A stretch of 11,411 bases of DNA, taken from contig JAUXBM010000022.1 in assembly GCA_030619415.1 (NCBI GenBank), positions 1 through 11,411 on the forward strand, written 5' to 3'. Position 1 is the first letter of the stretch. The number at the start of each line of letters is the position of its first letter. A program made the position numbers and the translations under genes. The notes beneath the pieces were generated by a model that did no database searches, was not told the origin of the DNA, and saw nothing but the letters and a program-made list of their open reading frames with translations. The DNA comes from Chlorobiota bacterium. Lineage in GTDB: Bacteria; Bacteroidota; Bacteroidia; Bacteroidales; F082. Shown one piece after another: positions 2,353 to 9,122 of this stretch.

Positions 2353-2447
2353 CCTTATATTTTATTGTACTTGTAACTCTCATTACGAAGTTCTATTACA
2401 TAATCCGGGTTGAAATAACAAATTAATTAGTTTTGAAAAAACAAAAA

Positions 2448-3293
2448 ATGAAATTTATAGGAGCGCATGTTAGTGCATCTGGAGGGGTTGAGAACGCACC
2501 CATCAATGCCAGTAAAATAGGGGCGAAAGCGTTTGCCTTGTTCACAAAAAATCAGAAGCAATGGTTTGCCAAACCCTTGTCAACAGAAAATATTGATGGT
2601 TTCAAAAGCAATTGTGAAAAACTTGGTTACGATCCAAAATATATCCTGCCCCACGACAGTTACCTGATCAACCTCGGTAACCCGGTTCCCGAAAACCTTG
2701 CCAAATCACGCAATGCTTTCCTCGACGAAATGCAACGATGCGAACAATTGGGCATTAAGCTGCTCAATTTTCATCCCGGTGCACATTTGAAACAAATTTC
2801 CGAGGAGGAGTGTATTGAAAGAATAGCTGAATCCATCAACATTACTTTAGACAAAACCAAAGGTGTGACAGCCGTCATCGAAAATACGGCCGGCCAGGGC
2901 AGTGCAATCGGCTATAAGTTTGAGCACCTGGCAGCCATTATTGAGATGGTTGAGGATAAAAGCCGGGTGGGTGTTTGCCTCGATACCTGTCATACTTTCA
3001 CCGCGGGATACGACATTAAATCAGAAGAAGGATACAAAAACACTTTTGAAGAATTTGAAAACATTGTTGGATTTCAGTACCTGAAAGGCCTCCACCTCAA
3101 CGATTCTAAAAAAGAACTGGCCTCCCGCGTCGACCGTCATGACAATATTGGTTTAGGCCTGCTTGGCGTTGAAGTATTTCGCCGAATCATGAATGACCCC
3201 CGTTTTGATGATATGCCAATCATTCTTGAAACGCCCAACAGTGATTTGTGGGAGGAGGAGATAGTGATGTTGTATGGTTTTAAATCGGATTAA
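2448..3293 (+). CDS. nfo: Endonuclease IV (AP endonuclease)
   Basis: This Zn-dependent AP endonuclease cleaves 5' to abasic sites and removes 3'-blocking groups in base-excision repair. From the ATG at 2448 the protein has 281 residues, and all nine metal ligands fall at exactly the E. coli Nfo numbers: H69, H109, E145, D179, H182, H216, D229, H231 and E261. The start [14 protein letters not shown] is the family N-terminus. An in-frame TTG at 2433 would add only a lysine-rich MKKQK and is rejected. A TAnnTTTG match overlaps that TTG (2428-2435), but its upstream TTG is only 15 bases away, so I do not claim a promoter. The last ~20 codons are duplicated in diverged form at 3917-3971 beyond the toxin-antitoxin pair, suggesting that the present 3' end may have been replaced. 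The enzyme itself looks intact and active. Confidence 0.97.
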
Positions 3294-3361: not shown

Positions 3362-3598
3362 ATGACTACGCTGGAATTAAAAAACTTACTTGTTCAGAGG
3401 ATTTCGGAGATCAACGATGTGCAATTTCTCAAAGCTCTAAAAACAATTCTCGATTCAAAATCAGATTCAAATATACTAAGTCTTTCACCGGAAATTACCC
3501 ATGAAATAATAACTTCCAAAAAAGAAATTGAACAAGGATTGTTTGTAGAAAATGACTTCCTGGAAAAAGAGATCACAGAATGGCTAAACGAAAAATAA
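3362..3598 (+). CDS. Putative antitoxin of a RelE/ParE-type module
   Basis: This is a small, acidic, mostly helical protein of 78 residues, encoded directly before a RelE/ParE-like toxin and overlapping it by 19 bases, which is the classic type II antitoxin arrangement. The first half (LELKNLLVQRISEINDVQFL) looks like an amphipathic helix. The middle reads LSLSPEITHEIITSKKEIEQG, and the C-terminus (FLEKEITEWLNEK) could be the toxin-wrapping segment. I see no ribbon-helix-helix, HTH or AbrB motif, so how it would bind its operator is not evident. The ATG is preceded by an A-rich stretch and a candidate promoter. The antitoxin role is inferred from size, position and overlap; I do not recognise a named family with certainty. 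Confidence 0.75.
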   Translation: MTTLELKNLLVQRISEINDVQFLKALKTILDSKSDSNILSLSPEITHEIITSKKEIEQGLFVENDFLEKEITEWLNEK

Positions 3599-3879
3599 TC
3601 TGGTCACACCGGGCAAAGATCAAGCGCTATCAGATTCTCGAATTCTACATCAACCGAAATAAGAGTAAGCGTTATTCAATAAAACTTAACCGCAGAATTA
3701 ACAAAGAACTACGCCTGTTACAGAAATATCCGAAACTAGGAATCAAAACCGAAATCGAAAATGTCAGAGGATTGATCATTGAAGATTTTATTCTTTTTTA
3801 CGAAACTAAAAAAGAGCGGATTATCATTCACACCATTTGGGATGCAAGGCAAAATCCTGATGATTTGATTATAAAATAA
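3580..3879 (+). CDS. RelE/ParE-superfamily toxin
   Basis: This is a 99-residue, strongly basic protein with the RelE/ParE pattern. An N-terminal strand (KIIWSHRAK) is followed by two helices (residues about 12-48), then YPKLG (50-54), the strand pair around VRGLIIEDFILFYE (62-75), and a final IIIHTIWDARQNPDDL (81-96). The ending with W-x-x-R-x-x-P/D-x-L is typical of this superfamily. By family it is either an mRNA interferase (RelE-like) or a gyrase poison (ParE-like), and the sequence alone does not decide which. Its ATG lies inside the antitoxin gene, implying translational coupling. The pair is AT-rich compared with nfo and gatDE and sits between two nfo 3' ends, which suggests that it was acquired. 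Confidence 0.88.
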   Translation: MAKRKIIWSHRAKIKRYQILEFYINRNKSKRYSIKLNRRINKELRLLQKYPKLGIKTEIENVRGLIIEDFILFYETKKERIIIHTIWDARQNPDDLIIK

Positions 3880-3916
3880 GCAACTACTTCTACATCGCCA
3901 ACAAATACTTTTCCTC

Positions 3917-3971
3917 AAAACACCCAACGGTTGTTTGTAAGAGGAGGAAATTGAGTTGCTTTATGGCTTGA
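3917..3971 (+). pseudogene. Remnant of a second nfo 3' end
   Basis: Bases 3918-3971 align without gaps to the nfo 3' end at 3229-3282 with 40 of 54 identities. Read in the nfo frame, the remnant gives KTPNGCL-stop-EEEIELLYGL against [18 protein letters not shown]. The metal ligand Glu261 has become Lys (AAA, 3917-3919), and Trp268 has become a stop (TAA, 3938-3940). Several differences are synonymous (ACG/ACA, GAG/GAA, ATA/ATT, TTG/CTT, GGT/GGC), so the two ends diverged under coding selection before this one decayed. Weak similarity may reach back to about 3893 with an indel. Confidence 0.75.
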
Positions 3972-4032: not shown

Positions 4033-5418
4033 TTATTTATAAACCCTTCTCACAAAATCATCTACGTCAGGCACCCCACCCTGGTAAACCAGGTAACCAT
4101 TGTAGGGTTCGCGAAGTGTTATCTCATCATTAACAGGCGTTAGCATCATTTCTTTCACTTTTTTAGGATCATCGGTCTGGCCTAAAATCCAGCTGAGTTT
4201 TACCCAGGCTACCTCAGGCAGCATATTTCCTGCCGGGATAATTCCTTTGGCCATCATATCCCGGCCGGTATCATATACAAACATGTGCACATATCCCCAG
4301 ATGGTTTGCAGTGTCATATACATATGCACCCCTTTTTCGTGTGCGCGTTCAATGGCAGGATAAAGTTCCTTGTTCACATGGCCAAGACCGGTACCCACGA
4401 AAATAACTCCTTTGTAACCTGCGTCAACAAGGGCGTCAAGCACATCCGGTTTCATGCCGGGGTAATAATACAGCATGGTTACATCATTGCTGAAATAGGG
4501 TAATATTTTCACGTTTTTATCGCTGCGCCGCTTGTTGTAATCCCCTTTTATTAACCTGATTTCATTCCGGTTGACACGTGCCAGTGGCGTGTCGCCGATC
4601 GTCCTGAAAGTAGAACGGTATGAAGAATGCATTTTGCGTACGCGGGTTCCTTTATGCAGTAATCCATATTCATCGGAGGTTGGGCCAAACATGCACACCA
4701 TTACTTCAGCAATATCTGAATGACCCGCAGCCCGCATGGCATGCATCAGGTTGAGGGCCGCATCTGAGCTTGGACGGTCAGAAGATCTTTGCGATCCCAC
4801 TAGGACAACCGGCACAGGCAGGTTCTGGCACATAAATGTCAGTGCGGCACCGGTATGATGGAGTGTATCGGTACCATGTCCCACAACAATTCCCTCCACG
4901 CCATTTTCAATTTCCTTACCAATCGCTTTGGCCAGTGAAACATATTGTTTGGGTCCCATGTTTTCACTGAACACAGCAAATACTTTTTCCGTTTCCAGGT
5001 TGCAGATATCGGCAAGTTCAGGAACGGCACCATACAATTCACCAGGTGAAAATGCCGGGATTACAGCACCGGTCCGGTAATCAAGGCGGGAGGCTATGGT
5101 TCCCCCGGTCCCAAAAAGTTTCACTTTTGGCAGACCGGGTGTCATGGGAAATTCTTTTTCAGGAATTTTATAATTGGCTTTTTTATAGCCTGTTTCCTTC
5201 ATTTTTGTGATGTTACGAACATCGATGCCAATGTTGTAGCCGGTGATGATCTTTACCACAATGTGCTTGTCATCATCATTTTCAGCCCTTGGCAAAACGG
5301 TACCTTCGAAAGTGCCCCTGGTAGTATCAACTTTGGTAGTTCCCCAAACCCGCACTTTATATTTTTTCAGCACTTCGAGTGCATCGCCTTTATAACCCTG
5401 AAAAATATCTTCTGTCAT
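4033..5418 (-). CDS. gatD: Glu-tRNA(Gln) amidotransferase subunit D (archaeal-type GatD)
   Basis: This is the glutaminase/asparaginase-type subunit that releases ammonia for conversion of Glu-tRNA(Gln) to Gln-tRNA(Gln) with GatE. The 461 residues include an N-terminal small beta-barrel domain (about 10-75, KVRVWGTTKVDTTRGTFEG...), absent from simple type I/II asparaginases but present in archaeal GatD. An L-asparaginase-like domain follows. Its catalytic residues are all visible: T107 in GTGGTIAS (103-110), T183 and D184 in HGTDT (181-185), and K262 in RVRKMHSS. The T107-T183 spacing of 76 equals that of the Methanothermobacter enzyme (T101/T177). The gene lies 75 bases downstream of gatE on the same strand. 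A stand-alone asparaginase is unlikely, given the N-terminal domain and the adjacent gatE. The subunit appears complete and active; its presence in a bacterium is unusual. Confidence 0.93.
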   Translation of the reverse strand: MTEDIFQGYKGDALEVLKKYKVRVWGTTKVDTTRGTFEGTVLPRAENDDDKHIVVKIITGYNIGIDVRNITKMKETGYKKANYKIPEKEFPMTPGLPKVKLFGTGGTIASRLDYRTGAVIPAFSPGELYGAVPELADICNLETEKVFAVFSENMGPKQYVSLAKAIGKEIENGVEGIVVGHGTDTLHHTGAALTFMCQNLPVPVVLVGSQRSSDRPSSDAALNLMHAMRAAGHSDIAEVMVCMFGPTSDEYGLLHKGTRVRKMHSSYRSTFRTIGDTPLARVNRNEIRLIKGDYNKRRSDKNVKILPYFSNDVTMLYYYPGMKPDVLDALVDAGYKGVIFVGTGLGHVNKELYPAIERAHEKGVHMYMTLQTIWGYVHMFVYDTGRDMMAKGIIPAGNMLPEVAWVKLSWILGQTDDPKKVKEMMLTPVNDEITLREPYNGYLVYQGGVPDVDDFVRRVYK

Positions 5419-5454
5419 TTTTTATGTTTTTCTCTGTTTTTCCCTACCTCAAAG

Positions 5455-5468
5455 CCCTCCGGGGAGGG
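5455..5468. repeat. GC-rich hairpin in the gatE-gatD spacer
   Basis: CCCTCC (5455-5460) and GGAGGG (5463-5468) form a tight perfect palindrome in an otherwise AT-rich 75-base spacer. On the plus strand it is followed by an ATTTTCGTTTTT tract, the shape of a terminator, but no plus-strand gene ends here. On the minus strand, the direction of gatE and gatD, no T-tract follows. It may be a dispersed repeat or may modulate gatD expression relative to gatE. Confidence 0.4.
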
Positions 5469-5493
5469 GAATTTTCGTTTTTCATTTCTTCAA

Positions 5494-7434
5494 TTAAATT
5501 TTCTCACTCAATTCCTTCAAATCCATGTTACCAATAGCCAGCTTCTTAACCTGGCCCATAACCCAATTGACACGGTTTGAGTCAGAGCCGACCTTTTTTT
5601 CCTTGTTGAACTTCTCAATCAATAACGGAAGCTTTTCAAGAATGAATTTGGTTTTCGTCCGCTTAAATTTCATTTCAATAAGAATGGATTCGAAATCCAT
5701 TTTTGGATGTTCAACCAGTTCAGGTAAAATAGATTTGGCCAGTCGATAGTCGAGTTTCTCTTTTTTTAAATAGGCAAATAGCTTATAAATCTTGCTGCCA
5801 TATAATTCGTCGGCACCGGTGTATTGTCCTTTAGCATGTTTTAAGGCATGGCCAAAAAAAGTGCCCACAAAAACGGGATCAACCTCCAACTCGTTGATTA
5901 TTTTTTCAATTAACGGAAAATGATCTTTCGAGAAAATATAGGTGTAGGTATCTTCAGGTACATTCCATTCTTTTAGCTTCCGGTACCGTTCAATAATATC
6001 CTCCGGCATGTTTTTACCCAGGCTTTGAATATATTCATCCTCAAGCGGGATTGGTGCTGAATCGGTATCAGGATACATGCGGTCGGCACCAGGGAGCACA
6101 CGCTCAAAAATAGTGGTTCCATCTTCAAACGATTTTCGGGTTTCGTTTGGAATGCCTTCCAGTGCCATCCGGCAGCGTTCTTCAACTGCTTCGAGTGCAG
6201 TCGTGATATCATCTGCCGGACCGGTGATAATAATTTGCGCATCATTTTCTCCGGCATTTAACAGCTCCCTGATTTCATTCCATTGACTTTCAGCAATTGT
6301 TGGTTCAAACTCCTCCGAATGCAACATATTTGGTCTTTCGATACAGGCAATTACTTTTAGCCTTTCCGACAATTCGTTGGCAAACATTTTACCGGGTTGG
6401 GTAAACCAGGATAATGCACCCTCAAAATTTGGCAAATTCACTGCAATTAACTTTTCAGCATGGCCGGGTAATTCTACACCTTTCAACATACTTTTATCCA
6501 ATTCAACATGACTGACCTTCCATTTAGAAGAAGATTTGATCCGTTGTTTCAACATATCACGCATCAACAGCAGCGACCATTGACGGAAAGCCTCATTGTG
6601 CGTCAATTCAGGAATCCATTTCGTGTGGGCAACCCCTTTGATTTCAACACGGGAGCCGCCTCTGCAGCTTACATTTACATCCTGCCTGCCTGCACCCATT
6701 CCTGTTCTCACTTTACCGGTGCTTCGGTTCAGAAATCGAATATAATCGCAGGTTTCCTTTACTTCTACGGGGTTCACACAATCAGGATAAGTAACGGTTT
6801 CGATCAGGGGCATACCCAATCGATCAGTCTTATACACCCTTTTGTGGCCAACATCAGAAATCTCCCGGCAGGAGTCTTCTTCAATGCTTAACTGAATCAG
6901 TCGTATTTTTTTGTGTGGCAATTCGAGCTCACCTTCTACGCCAATAATTGCAGTCCGCTGAAACCCTGTTGGGATACTTCCATCGAGGTATTGCTTGCGG
7001 GTGATATGTACCTCACCGACTACGTTCAGTTTCGAAAGCAGCGAAATTTCGATGGCAATTCCAAGCGCTTCACGGTTCATAGGGAATGGTGGTGTATCAT
7101 CCACTTCGTAGGTGCATGCCGATTGGTTTTTGAGGCGGTAATAGATCTCCTTTCGGGTTTTAAACTCCATGAGCGCAGTCCCATCATATTCGCCAAGTTC
7201 GCTGAGGGTGGGGCGCATATGCCTGATCAGTTCGGCATCATAATCATCATGTCCGTTAAATATACCTGCCGGACAATGACAAAACAGCTTTTCTTTGGTA
7301 AGCAGCTGCTGATGAACCTCTAATCCCGACATAAACCCGATGCGGTTGTAGTCTTTCTGAGTGGCTTTTTTTCGGGGAATATAACCTGCCTTCCATTGGC
7401 TTTCGGCATGGTTGTGTTTGGGATCAAACTTCAT
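5494..7434 (-). CDS. gatE: Glu-tRNA(Gln) amidotransferase subunit E (archaeal-type GatE)
   Basis: This is the kinase/transamidase subunit that phosphorylates the Glu of Glu-tRNA(Gln) and aminates it with ammonia from GatD. At 646 residues it is near the usual ~620-630. The GatB/E cradle domain covers about 30-300. It includes GLEVHQQL (37-44, whose H41 fits a metal ligand), KLFCHCP (49-55), YLDGSIPTGFQRT (149-161), SIEEDSCRE (183-191), GMPLIETVTYPD (207-218) and GAGRQDVNVS (247-256). A GAD/AspRS-like insertion covers about 310-430 (NLPNFEGALS, TQPGKMFANELSERLKV). This insertion distinguishes GatE from GatB. The signature ETRKSFEDGTT...RVLPGADRMYPDTD (431-458) follows, then helical and YqeY-like tail domains (about 470-646, ending VMGQVKKLAIGNMDLKELSEKI). 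It is the first gene of a gatE-gatD unit and is divergent from the OstA-like gene. No convincing promoter is seen in the 179-base divergent gap beyond a near-match TACTTTAG (minus strand, 7459-7466). All domains are present. Confidence 0.95.
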   Translation of the reverse strand: MKFDPKHNHAESQWKAGYIPRKKATQKDYNRIGFMSGLEVHQQLLTKEKLFCHCPAGIFNGHDDYDAELIRHMRPTLSELGEYDGTALMEFKTRKEIYYRLKNQSACTYEVDDTPPFPMNREALGIAIEISLLSKLNVVGEVHITRKQYLDGSIPTGFQRTAIIGVEGELELPHKKIRLIQLSIEEDSCREISDVGHKRVYKTDRLGMPLIETVTYPDCVNPVEVKETCDYIRFLNRSTGKVRTGMGAGRQDVNVSCRGGSRVEIKGVAHTKWIPELTHNEAFRQWSLLLMRDMLKQRIKSSSKWKVSHVELDKSMLKGVELPGHAEKLIAVNLPNFEGALSWFTQPGKMFANELSERLKVIACIERPNMLHSEEFEPTIAESQWNEIRELLNAGENDAQIIITGPADDITTALEAVEERCRMALEGIPNETRKSFEDGTTIFERVLPGADRMYPDTDSAPIPLEDEYIQSLGKNMPEDIIERYRKLKEWNVPEDTYTYIFSKDHFPLIEKIINELEVDPVFVGTFFGHALKHAKGQYTGADELYGSKIYKLFAYLKKEKLDYRLAKSILPELVEHPKMDFESILIEMKFKRTKTKFILEKLPLLIEKFNKEKKVGSDSNRVNWVMGQVKKLAIGNMDLKELSEKI

Positions 7435-7613: not shown

Positions 7614-9122
7614 ATGTTCAGAACCTTCATCGTCATCTTTTTTTTGCTGCTTATCGCCAGTGGTTCATTTGCCCAAAAAAAATCGAAAATTTTTGTTGAG
7701 CGTACGGATGTGCAACGCTATACCGAGTTAATTGCCAAAGAGCAATTAATCGGGAATGTCATCATCCGACAGGAGAATACACGGTTTTACTGTGACAGTG
7801 CTTACCTGAACGATAAAGAAAATAGTTTTGAAGCTTTCGGAAATGTGCATATTGATGTGAACGATTCGGTGGATGTTTATGGTGATCGCATGCTTTATGA
7901 AGGCGATACCCGCATTGCCGAATTGTTTGGCAATGTTAAATTAATCGACAATAACACAGTACTTACGACTGAACATCTTGTTTACAACCGAAATACAAAA
8001 ATTGCCTTTTATGATGTGGGGGGGACAATTGTAAACCAGGAGAACACATTGGTGAGCGAACGAGGCTATTACAATACCGAAACCAAAATTCTCTATTTCA
8101 GGAAAGATGTAGTTTTGACCAATCCTGAATCGGAAACTTATTCCGACACGCTGATTTACAATACAATCACTGAAACAGCTTTCTTTAAGGGCCCGACCAT
8201 TATGCGGGGCACAGAAAGTACAATTTATATGGAAGATGGATGGTATGACACCAAATCCGATTTTTCGAAACTAACCAGGCGGCCGGTAATCAGCAGCGCA
8301 GATCAAACAATCACTGCTGATAGCATTTATTACGACAATCTAAAATCCTACGGGCGTGCATTCGGTCATGTCGAAATTCTCGATACTACCCACCAGGTTT
8401 TGATCAGGGGCAAATATGCCGAAATGTGGGACAACGTAGGACAGTCTTTTATCACCGACAGTACCCTGGCAATTACATACGATGAAAAAGATTCGATGTA
8501 TATCCATTCGGACACGATGTGGATGTTTTTCGACAAAACGCGAAACGCTAAAAGAATGCTTGCCTATTACAATGTCAGGATCTTTCGTGAAACTTTGCAG
8601 GGAAAATGCGACTCCCTCGCCTATACCATGAATGATTCTACCATTCGCCTTTATGATGAGCCGATTTTGTGGTCAGGTAAAAACCAGCTTTCGGCTGACT
8701 CAATTAGTGTTGTGCTTTCAAATAACGAACTCGATTCGCTGATTATGTACAACACGGCATTTATTGTTTCGCGCGACAGTACCGAGAGTTATAACCAGAT
8801 CAGGGGAAAGGACATGGTCGGTTATTTTCGAAACAACGAACTGTCCAAAATTAGCGTCGAAGGCAATGCACAAACTGTTTATTATATTCGTGAGGATGAT
8901 GGATTTTTGATTGGTGTTAACCTTTCCGAGTCGAGTTCCATGCTCATTCGGTTGGTTGATAACGACATCAAAACGATCAATTATATGTCGCAACCCAAAG
9001 AGACGATGTACCCCGAAGCAGACCTCCCCGGCGAGATGCGAAAATTAAAGGGATTTACCTGGAAAGAACGATTAAGGCCCTTAACCAAAGACGACATATT
9101 TATTACCGGTCAGGAGGATTGA
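7614..9122 (+). CDS. OstA/LptA-like periplasmic LPS-transport protein
   Basis: This is a secreted protein of 502 residues with a signal peptide at 1-20 (hydrophobic IVIFFLLLIASG, predicted cleavage SFA-QKK). The mature part is a run of short beta-strand repeats of the OstA (LptA/LptD N-terminal) type, with recurrent GNV cores: LIGNVIIRQ (46-54), AFGNVHIDV (74-82) and LFGNVKLID (104-112). YCDSAYLND and similar D-S/D-xx-Y segments alternate with them. In LPS export such beta-jellyroll proteins bridge inner and outer membranes. It is much longer than E. coli LptA (~185), as is usual for Bacteroidota OstA. There is no lipobox and no LptD barrel. The start at 7614 is supported by the signal peptide; upstream ATGs at 7588 and 7591 are out of frame. 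It converges with the MCE gene, 11 bases apart, a neighbourhood I recall as recurrent in Bacteroidota. Confidence 0.88.
   Translation: MFRTFIVIFFLLLIASGSFAQKKSKIFVERTDVQRYTELIAKEQLIGNVIIRQENTRFYCDSAYLNDKENSFEAFGNVHIDVNDSVDVYGDRMLYEGDTRIAELFGNVKLIDNNTVLTTEHLVYNRNTKIAFYDVGGTIVNQENTLVSERGYYNTETKILYFRKDVVLTNPESETYSDTLIYNTITETAFFKGPTIMRGTESTIYMEDGWYDTKSDFSKLTRRPVISSADQTITADSIYYDNLKSYGRAFGHVEILDTTHQVLIRGKYAEMWDNVGQSFITDSTLAITYDEKDSMYIHSDTMWMFFDKTRNAKRMLAYYNVRIFRETLQGKCDSLAYTMNDSTIRLYDEPILWSGKNQLSADSISVVLSNNELDSLIMYNTAFIVSRDSTESYNQIRGKDMVGYFRNNELSKISVEGNAQTVYYIREDDGFLIGVNLSESSSMLIRLVDNDIKTINYMSQPKETMYPEADLPGEMRKLKGFTWKERLRPLTKDDIFITGQED

Follow-up and report, generated by a model that had tools for sequence, protein, structure and literature searches.

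The window analyzed here, i.e., the whole 11,411-base contig of a Chlorobiota bacterium, carries a gatE–gatD gene pair for the two subunits of GatDE, an amidotransferase described as archaeal in the available portions of reviews. With a probability of roughly 0.62 by our estimate, the pair encodes a working GatDE-type Glu-tRNA(Gln) amidotransferase, which would be long resident, largely vertically inherited, mostly present beside glutaminyl-tRNA synthetase (GlnRS), and the sole route in some lineages. Activity, substrate, and the role beside GlnRS we infer from sequence, conservation, distribution, and co-occurrence. Judged from sequence, the new element is the occurrence of intact GatDE across many Bacteroidota, contrary to the archaea-only statement; the sequences themselves are already in databases, and public protein records already name GatD and GatE for Bacteroidales metagenome-assembled genomes (MAGs).

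The source bin is of metagenome type (237 contigs totaling 1.65 Mb, with a completeness of 56% and a contamination of 0.6%), and the window is its contig C74. The genes gatE (5494–7434, minus strand, 646 amino acids) and gatD (4033–5418, minus strand, 461 amino acids) are uninterrupted open reading frames (ORFs) arranged head to tail, with gatD directly downstream of gatE after a gap of 75 bases. GatD consists of a GatD_N domain (PF18195, 45.9 bits against a cut-off of 25.7) and L-asparaginase-type glutaminase domains, for which both the N- and C-terminal asparaginase models of Pfam were matched. Both proteins passed the equivalog models of their families: GatD scored 502.4 bits with TIGR02153 (cut-off 324) and 503.3 bits with NF003217 (cut-off 310), and GatE scored 426 bits with TIGR00134 (cut-off 319.55) and 474.6 bits with NF003107 (cut-off 456). 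The window GatE stays below the GatB cut-offs (122.7 bits vs. 338 and 118.4 bits vs. 314.8). The first-pass annotation, made from the letters of the window, had described the pair as complete, including the cradle, the GAD insertion, and the tail of GatE. The completeness of the pair is borne out by the intact frames, the equivalog scores, and the retention of all checked catalytic residues. Regarding the domains of GatE, the GatB/E kinase–transamidase cradle is well above its cut-off (GatB_N, 154.2 bits, cut-off 23.4), whereas the GAD insertion (approximately residues 328–414; 12.6 bits, cut-off 23.4) and the helical YqeY-like tail (approximately residues 509–644; 25.3 bits, cut-off 27) occupy the expected places with scores below the Pfam cut-offs. 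A GAD match at an E-value of up to 1 was obtained for 55 of 74 aligned GatE sequences, archaeal rows included, and by its sequence the insertion of the window GatE is probably present in a divergent form. In sequence, the closest PDB entries are 1zq1 and 2d6f, which hold the archaeal proteins. An AlphaFold2 model of GatE was of low confidence (mean predicted local distance difference test score of 65.1, 26 sequences used, cradle poor); its top three Foldseek matches were 2d6f_D, 2d6f_C, and 1zq1_C, with a template modeling score of approximately 0.42 by query length and a root mean square deviation above 11.

At the GatD positions named in the first-pass annotation (T107, T183, D184, and K262), all 134 GatD rows (124 distinct sequences) have these same residues. 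For GatE, 22 positions of our own choice were tested and found to be invariant in 154/154 bacterial rows (141 distinct sequences); four archaeal rows depart from the bacterial residues at D113 and L150 only. Between the window and G422, a member of its own genus, the identity at codon positions 1, 2, and 3 is 79, 91, and 44% for gatE and 91, 97, and 47% for gatD. Judging from this codon pattern, gatD and gatE are held under strong purifying selection, in agreement with the retention under selection proposed in the first-pass annotation. By analogy with the chemistry of archaeal GatDE, the residues of which are conserved here, GatD would free ammonia from an amide donor, and GatE would phosphorylate and then amidate the glutamyl moiety of the Glu-tRNA(Gln) that the host's glutamyl-tRNA synthetase (GluRS) provides.

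The distribution of GatE does not support a transfer peculiar to this genome. GatE was matched in 53 of the 60 genomes of the window's family, covering 16/16 genera and 6/6 genomes of its own genus, with five of the 53 (G400, G409, G412, G425, and G436) holding fragments only. In the window's order, 63 of 149 genomes have GatE over the cut-off. A phylum-wide draw of 247 genomes gave 19, namely the window genome and 18 from outside its class; no GatE over the cut-off was found in the other genomes of the window's own class and order in that draw. A scan of genome contigs for gatE confirmed at least 570 stretches, the best 80 of which bear MAG or uncultured-bacterium titles; 77 of these 80 are titled as Bacteroidota groups and the rest as Chlorobiota, Ignavibacteriales, and Aminicenantes (L075, L127, and L141). 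The stretch titled Candidatus Aminicenantes (L141) has a gatE–gatD pair of this type, with 61% and 71% identity, which reflects either transfer into another phylum or a misbinned contig. Another genome of the window's genus, G435, gave two GatE matches to the window (on contigs C137 and C167), one nearly full-length at 60% identity and one a contig-end fragment at 90% identity, i.e., the bin either has a duplicate gatE or is contaminated.

A GatE tree of 59 rows was built by a quick method with support from the Shimodaira–Hasegawa-like approximate likelihood ratio test only; six archaeal and two other rows are of odd letter make-up. In this tree, the window's family forms one clade (support 98) and the 37 rows of the order's type form one branch (99). 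Fifteen rows from outside the class form a separate branch (99), and the seven archaeal rows are a third group; the branches to either side of the root are long. The nearest rows to the window are those of G405 and G441 (genus g264), and two rows are identical to others, L340 (G418) to L063 and L337 (G446) to L062. Since the order's GatE type is also found in G156, which lies outside the class, and in one Ignavibacteriales-titled MAG, some transfer between classes is probable. When GatE presence was placed on a GluRS tree of 70 genomes, at least 17 state changes were required compared to a mean of 23.7 after shuffling, and none of 200 shuffles was as low; this distribution suggests that GatE is old here and was lost or transferred many times. 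Among the matches listed in the protein search, the archaeal relatives that were named belong to Thermococcales and Methanothermobacter only. On this narrow archaeal sampling, an interdomain transfer as suggested in the first-pass annotation may or may not have occurred; because a long branch leads to the few archaeal GatE sampled, any such transfer is probably old. Taken together, bacterial GatDE is probably widespread and old rather than a lone acquisition, and its inheritance appears largely vertical within the family and the order. The first-pass annotation had raised the alternative that GatDE might be broadly and vertically inherited and already described in this phylum. The former part holds within the family and the order, whereas a prior description was not found in the literature searched.

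GlnRS is a common companion of GatDE. In the order, glnS is over the cut-off in 133 of 149 genomes and in 56 of the 63 with GatE; in the family, GlnRS is over the cut-off in 50/60 genomes (44/53 with GatE and 6/7 without it), and one genome, G416, gave neither GatE nor GlnRS. Outside the class, GlnRS was found in 18/18 GatE-positive and 15/18 chosen GatE-negative genomes. Since most relatives also have GlnRS, GatDE would usually run beside the direct route, where it would convert GluRS-made Glu-tRNA(Gln) as a parallel supply or as a correction of mischarged tRNA. Replacement of GlnRS by GatDE as a general rule, a possibility raised in the first-pass annotation, is rejected on these counts and on the lack of association reported below. 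The seven GatE-positive order genomes without GlnRS are G000, the window genome (56% complete), G255 (88%), G280 (96%), G320 (99%), G372 (82%), G375 (78%), and G386 (83%). For ten of the 149 order genomes, the matches listed include GatB-like ones; G255, G372, and G375 of these seven belong to that group. Nine GatE-negative order genomes also have no glnS over the cut-off: four contain glnS fragments (G304, G319, G373, and G382), two a GatB-like match (G260 and G322), and three (G257, G292, and G337) neither a glnS fragment nor a GatB-like match. No GlnRS was found in the window genome, a bin that is only 56% complete and may thus lack the gene merely by incompleteness; its GluRS (cut by a contig end) and asparaginyl-tRNA synthetase (AsnRS) were found, and GlnRS is over the cut-off in four of the five other genomes sampled from its genus. 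In one GatE-positive genome, G381, two GlnRS genes are over the cut-off (contigs C37 and C52).

A clearer case is genus g264 of the window's family, in which GlnRS is absent and a full-length GatE present in all four genomes (G405, G418, G431, and G441; 96, 93, 86, and 93% complete). The chance of four GlnRS misses by incompleteness alone is approximately 3 × 10−5 if they are independent, and independent incompleteness hardly explains the absence. In such lineages, GlnRS is apparently gone, and GatDE would be left as the likely only route. Similarly, the two sampled species of genus g157 have one enzyme each: G280 has GatE without GlnRS, and G393 has GlnRS without GatE. As for asparagine, AsnRS is over the cut-off in 142 of the 149 order genomes, including that of the window, so no second system for Asn amidation is needed. 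The first-pass annotation had supposed that another system serves Asn-tRNA; a role of GatDE itself in serving Asn was considered and found to be unsupported.

The coexistence of the two enzymes in 56/63 GatE-positive genomes of the order and in 18/18 outside the class would also fit an error-correction role only, in which GatDE repairs GluRS-mischarged Glu-tRNA(Gln) beside GlnRS and keeps Glu out of Gln codons, without a role in supply. Gene neighborhoods can be read in the same sense. In G285, glnS, gatE, and gatD lie on a single strand, with approximately 100 bases between glnS and gatE and essentially none between gatE and gatD, and in G427, glnS and gatD are convergent neighbors; these arrangements suggest a shared substrate, tRNA(Gln). 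The genes glnS and gatE share a contig in 8 of the 44 family genomes that have both, six of them within approximately 20 kb, although contigs are short and the genomes are related and thus not independent. Yet, genus g264 keeps GatDE without GlnRS, where a supply role would be needed, and 86 of 149 order genomes do without GatE over the cut-off. We therefore consider a purely corrective function unlikely.

Archaeal GatDE uses the A1–U72 pair and the D-loop of its tRNA, according to the part of the article available (PMC9499178). The corresponding features were read with a tRNA-Gln model derived from three tRNA-Gln(CUG) genes with U1–A72 and run on 38 GatE-positive and 48 GatE-negative genomes; a strongly deviating tRNA-Gln could have escaped this model. 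Among the matches listed, all 106 genes read (61 from GatE-positive and 45 from GatE-negative genomes) start with U, and 102 were scored by script as U1–A72; the host tRNA-Gln in these genes does not follow the archaeal A1–U72 rule. In the window genome, the sole type shown is a tRNA-Gln(UUG) on contig C204, which starts with U and has a 7-base D-loop. Consequently, if tRNA-Gln is the substrate, bacterial GatDE must read it differently from archaeal GatDE, and recognition would have shifted from A1–U72 toward the bacterial U1, paired as U1–A72 in nearly all genes scored. The first base pair and the D-loop had been singled out in the first-pass annotation as determinants; the former proved uniformly bacterial in its U1 start, whereas the latter yielded no type peculiar to GatE-positive genomes. 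Two D-loop types, of 7 and 8 bases, occur. They looked GatDE-specific initially, a reading discarded because GatE-negative genomes carry both types too. In nine order genomes, six with GatE and three without, a distance of no more than approximately 350 bases separates glnS from a tRNA-Gln(CUG) of the 8-base D-loop type (L153, L154, L157, L165, L168, L169, L254, L255, and L256), and the two possibly form a glnS–tRNA(Gln) cassette.

These tRNA genes bear on a division of labor, in which GlnRS would serve one isoacceptor, often the CUG type beside glnS, and GluRS with GatDE the other, UUG. Several GatE-positive genomes indeed combine a glnS-adjoining tRNA-Gln(CUG) of the 8-base type with a 7-base UUG type elsewhere, and the window genome shows the UUG 7-base type only. 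However, the same CUG/UUG pairing is present in GatE-negative genomes, e.g., G346, G309, and G252, and the counts of the UUG 7-base type among the matches listed overlap (22/36 in GatE-positive and 22/28 in GatE-negative genomes), which makes such a division quite improbable. A role outside tRNA, with GatD acting as an asparaginase or glutaminase and GatE repurposed or idle, carries a similarly low probability: GatD does score above the cut-off for type I asparaginases (375.2 bits vs. 260.5), but it keeps the GatD_N domain, the distances of GatD and GatE correlate (rho 0.77 in a random 60 loci), as expected of co-evolving partners, and the acidic and basic residues tested in GatE are invariant. 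A recent archaeal transfer into the window genome alone, or an assembly chimera as contemplated in the first-pass annotation, can practically be dismissed, since the archaeal names of the NCBIfam families (gatE_arch and gatD_arch) are outweighed by the presence throughout the family, which refutes it, by the same gene order in the independently assembled L063, by the long branch between bacterial and sampled archaeal GatE, and by a guanine–cytosine content of 0.43–0.46 in gatE and gatD vs. 0.41 in the remaining window.

Several observations weigh against a long-resident, largely vertical GatDE that works on tRNA(Gln). GatE presence is not associated with GlnRS absence, either in the order (GlnRS missing in 7/63 genomes with GatE vs. 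9/86 without) or in the family (9/53 vs. 1/7), with p = 1.0 in both. GatE and GluRS distances correlate only moderately (rho 0.36 for 20 genomes, with 12 of 2000 permutations as high). The patchy presence in the order, with the state changes given above, implies frequent loss or movement, so that GatDE is unlikely to be essential beside GlnRS. Among the matches listed, no tRNA-Gln type peculiar to GatE-positive genomes was seen. GluRS was searched in 80 genomes and found over the cut-off in 75, of which 70 were aligned (leaving out G252, G254, G269, G271, and G317); the equivalent of Arg358, which we take to bear on tRNA discrimination, is Arg in 70/70, GlnRS-less genomes included, and is uninformative as a mark of non-discrimination. 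In genus g264, the GatE search, which by tblastn detects 11/11 GatB test loci of the phylum, gave no second match, and no search with GatB's own model was made.

The genes flanking the pair are bacterial, as first annotated. The nfo gene for deoxyribonuclease IV (2433–3293, plus strand; NF002199, 489.8 bits) lies downstream of gatD and convergent with it, and an OstA/LptA-like gene (7614–9122, plus strand; OstA_2, 164.1 bits) lies upstream of gatE in divergent orientation. In L063, the arrangement AmiA–MlaD–OstA–gatE–gatD–nfo has the same order and orientation as in the window. Across 81 loci, the window counted, homologues near gatE are OstA in 25, AmiA in 18, MlaD in 17, and nfo in 2, with many loci cut by contig ends. 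Of 129 gatE loci, 115 also gave a gatD gene, which in all 115 follows gatE on its strand. The two genes do not adjoin in every genome: in G405 (genus g264, locus L333), a separate 136-amino-acid ORF (3559–3966, plus strand) lies between gatE and gatD. Between nfo and gatD in the window (3362–3879, plus strand), the end of a 78-amino-acid ORF (3362–3598) overlaps with the beginning of a gene for a ParE-type toxin (3580–3879; PF05016, 27.9 bits, cut-off 23), and the two possibly constitute a type II toxin–antitoxin pair.

To date, no report of bacterial GatDE was recognized in the literature searched, which covers few subscription journals and is available in part (including PMC9499178, PMC8762117, PMC8007984, PMC3927822, PMC4206432, PMC9976931, and PMC7373986). 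PMC13047044, PMC12283126, and PMC13131534 contain the word GatDE only among their cited references. One survey classified 366 bacterial genomes according to GluRS, GlnRS, and gatCAB and equated the lack of gatCAB, also in Bacteroidetes, with an indirect Gln route that is defunct; GatDE is unmentioned in the portion available (PMC3927822). If bacterial GatDE works, that equation does not hold for much of the sampled order. GlnRS is stated to be absent from all archaeal species (PMC9499178, in its available part); the coexistence of GlnRS and GatDE, if true, would run contrary to the argument that coevolution of GatDE and tRNA kept GlnRS out of archaea. It would offer a natural system for studying why two routes to one aminoacyl-tRNA persist and how GatDE reads a U1–A72 tRNA. 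As a broader proposal, which we hold tentatively and at somewhat less than even odds, bacteria own an old branch of GatDE whose tRNA recognition has been re-tuned to U1–A72 tRNA-Gln and which acts alongside GlnRS as a second, sometimes sole, route. In that case, GatDE would be no archaeal signature.

The gene pair of the window can be compared with three known systems. With archaeal GatDE (Methanothermobacter thermautotrophicus, 2d6f; Pyrococcus abyssi, 1zq1), it shares two subunits, the GatD_N and asparaginase domains, the cradle of GatE together with a putative tail and the place of the GAD insertion, and all tested catalytic residues. Yet, bacterial GatE is only 30–35% identical to the archaeal proteins, its GAD insertion and tail fall below the Pfam cut-offs, the host tRNA-Gln starts with U1 instead of A1, and the host usually has GlnRS. 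Bacterial GatCAB belongs to the same reaction class, and the cradle and tail fold of GatB are common to GatE; however, the window GatE scores far under the GatB cut-offs, and GatD is unrelated to GatA. Finally, Deinococcus, Thermus, and Bdellovibrio have GlnRS plus GatCAB, according to the available part of PMC4206432, and likewise combine a synthetase for direct charging with an amidotransferase. The amidotransferase of those bacteria, GatCAB, is linked to Asn-tRNA(Asn), whereas here it is GatDE, in an order where AsnRS is nearly universal.

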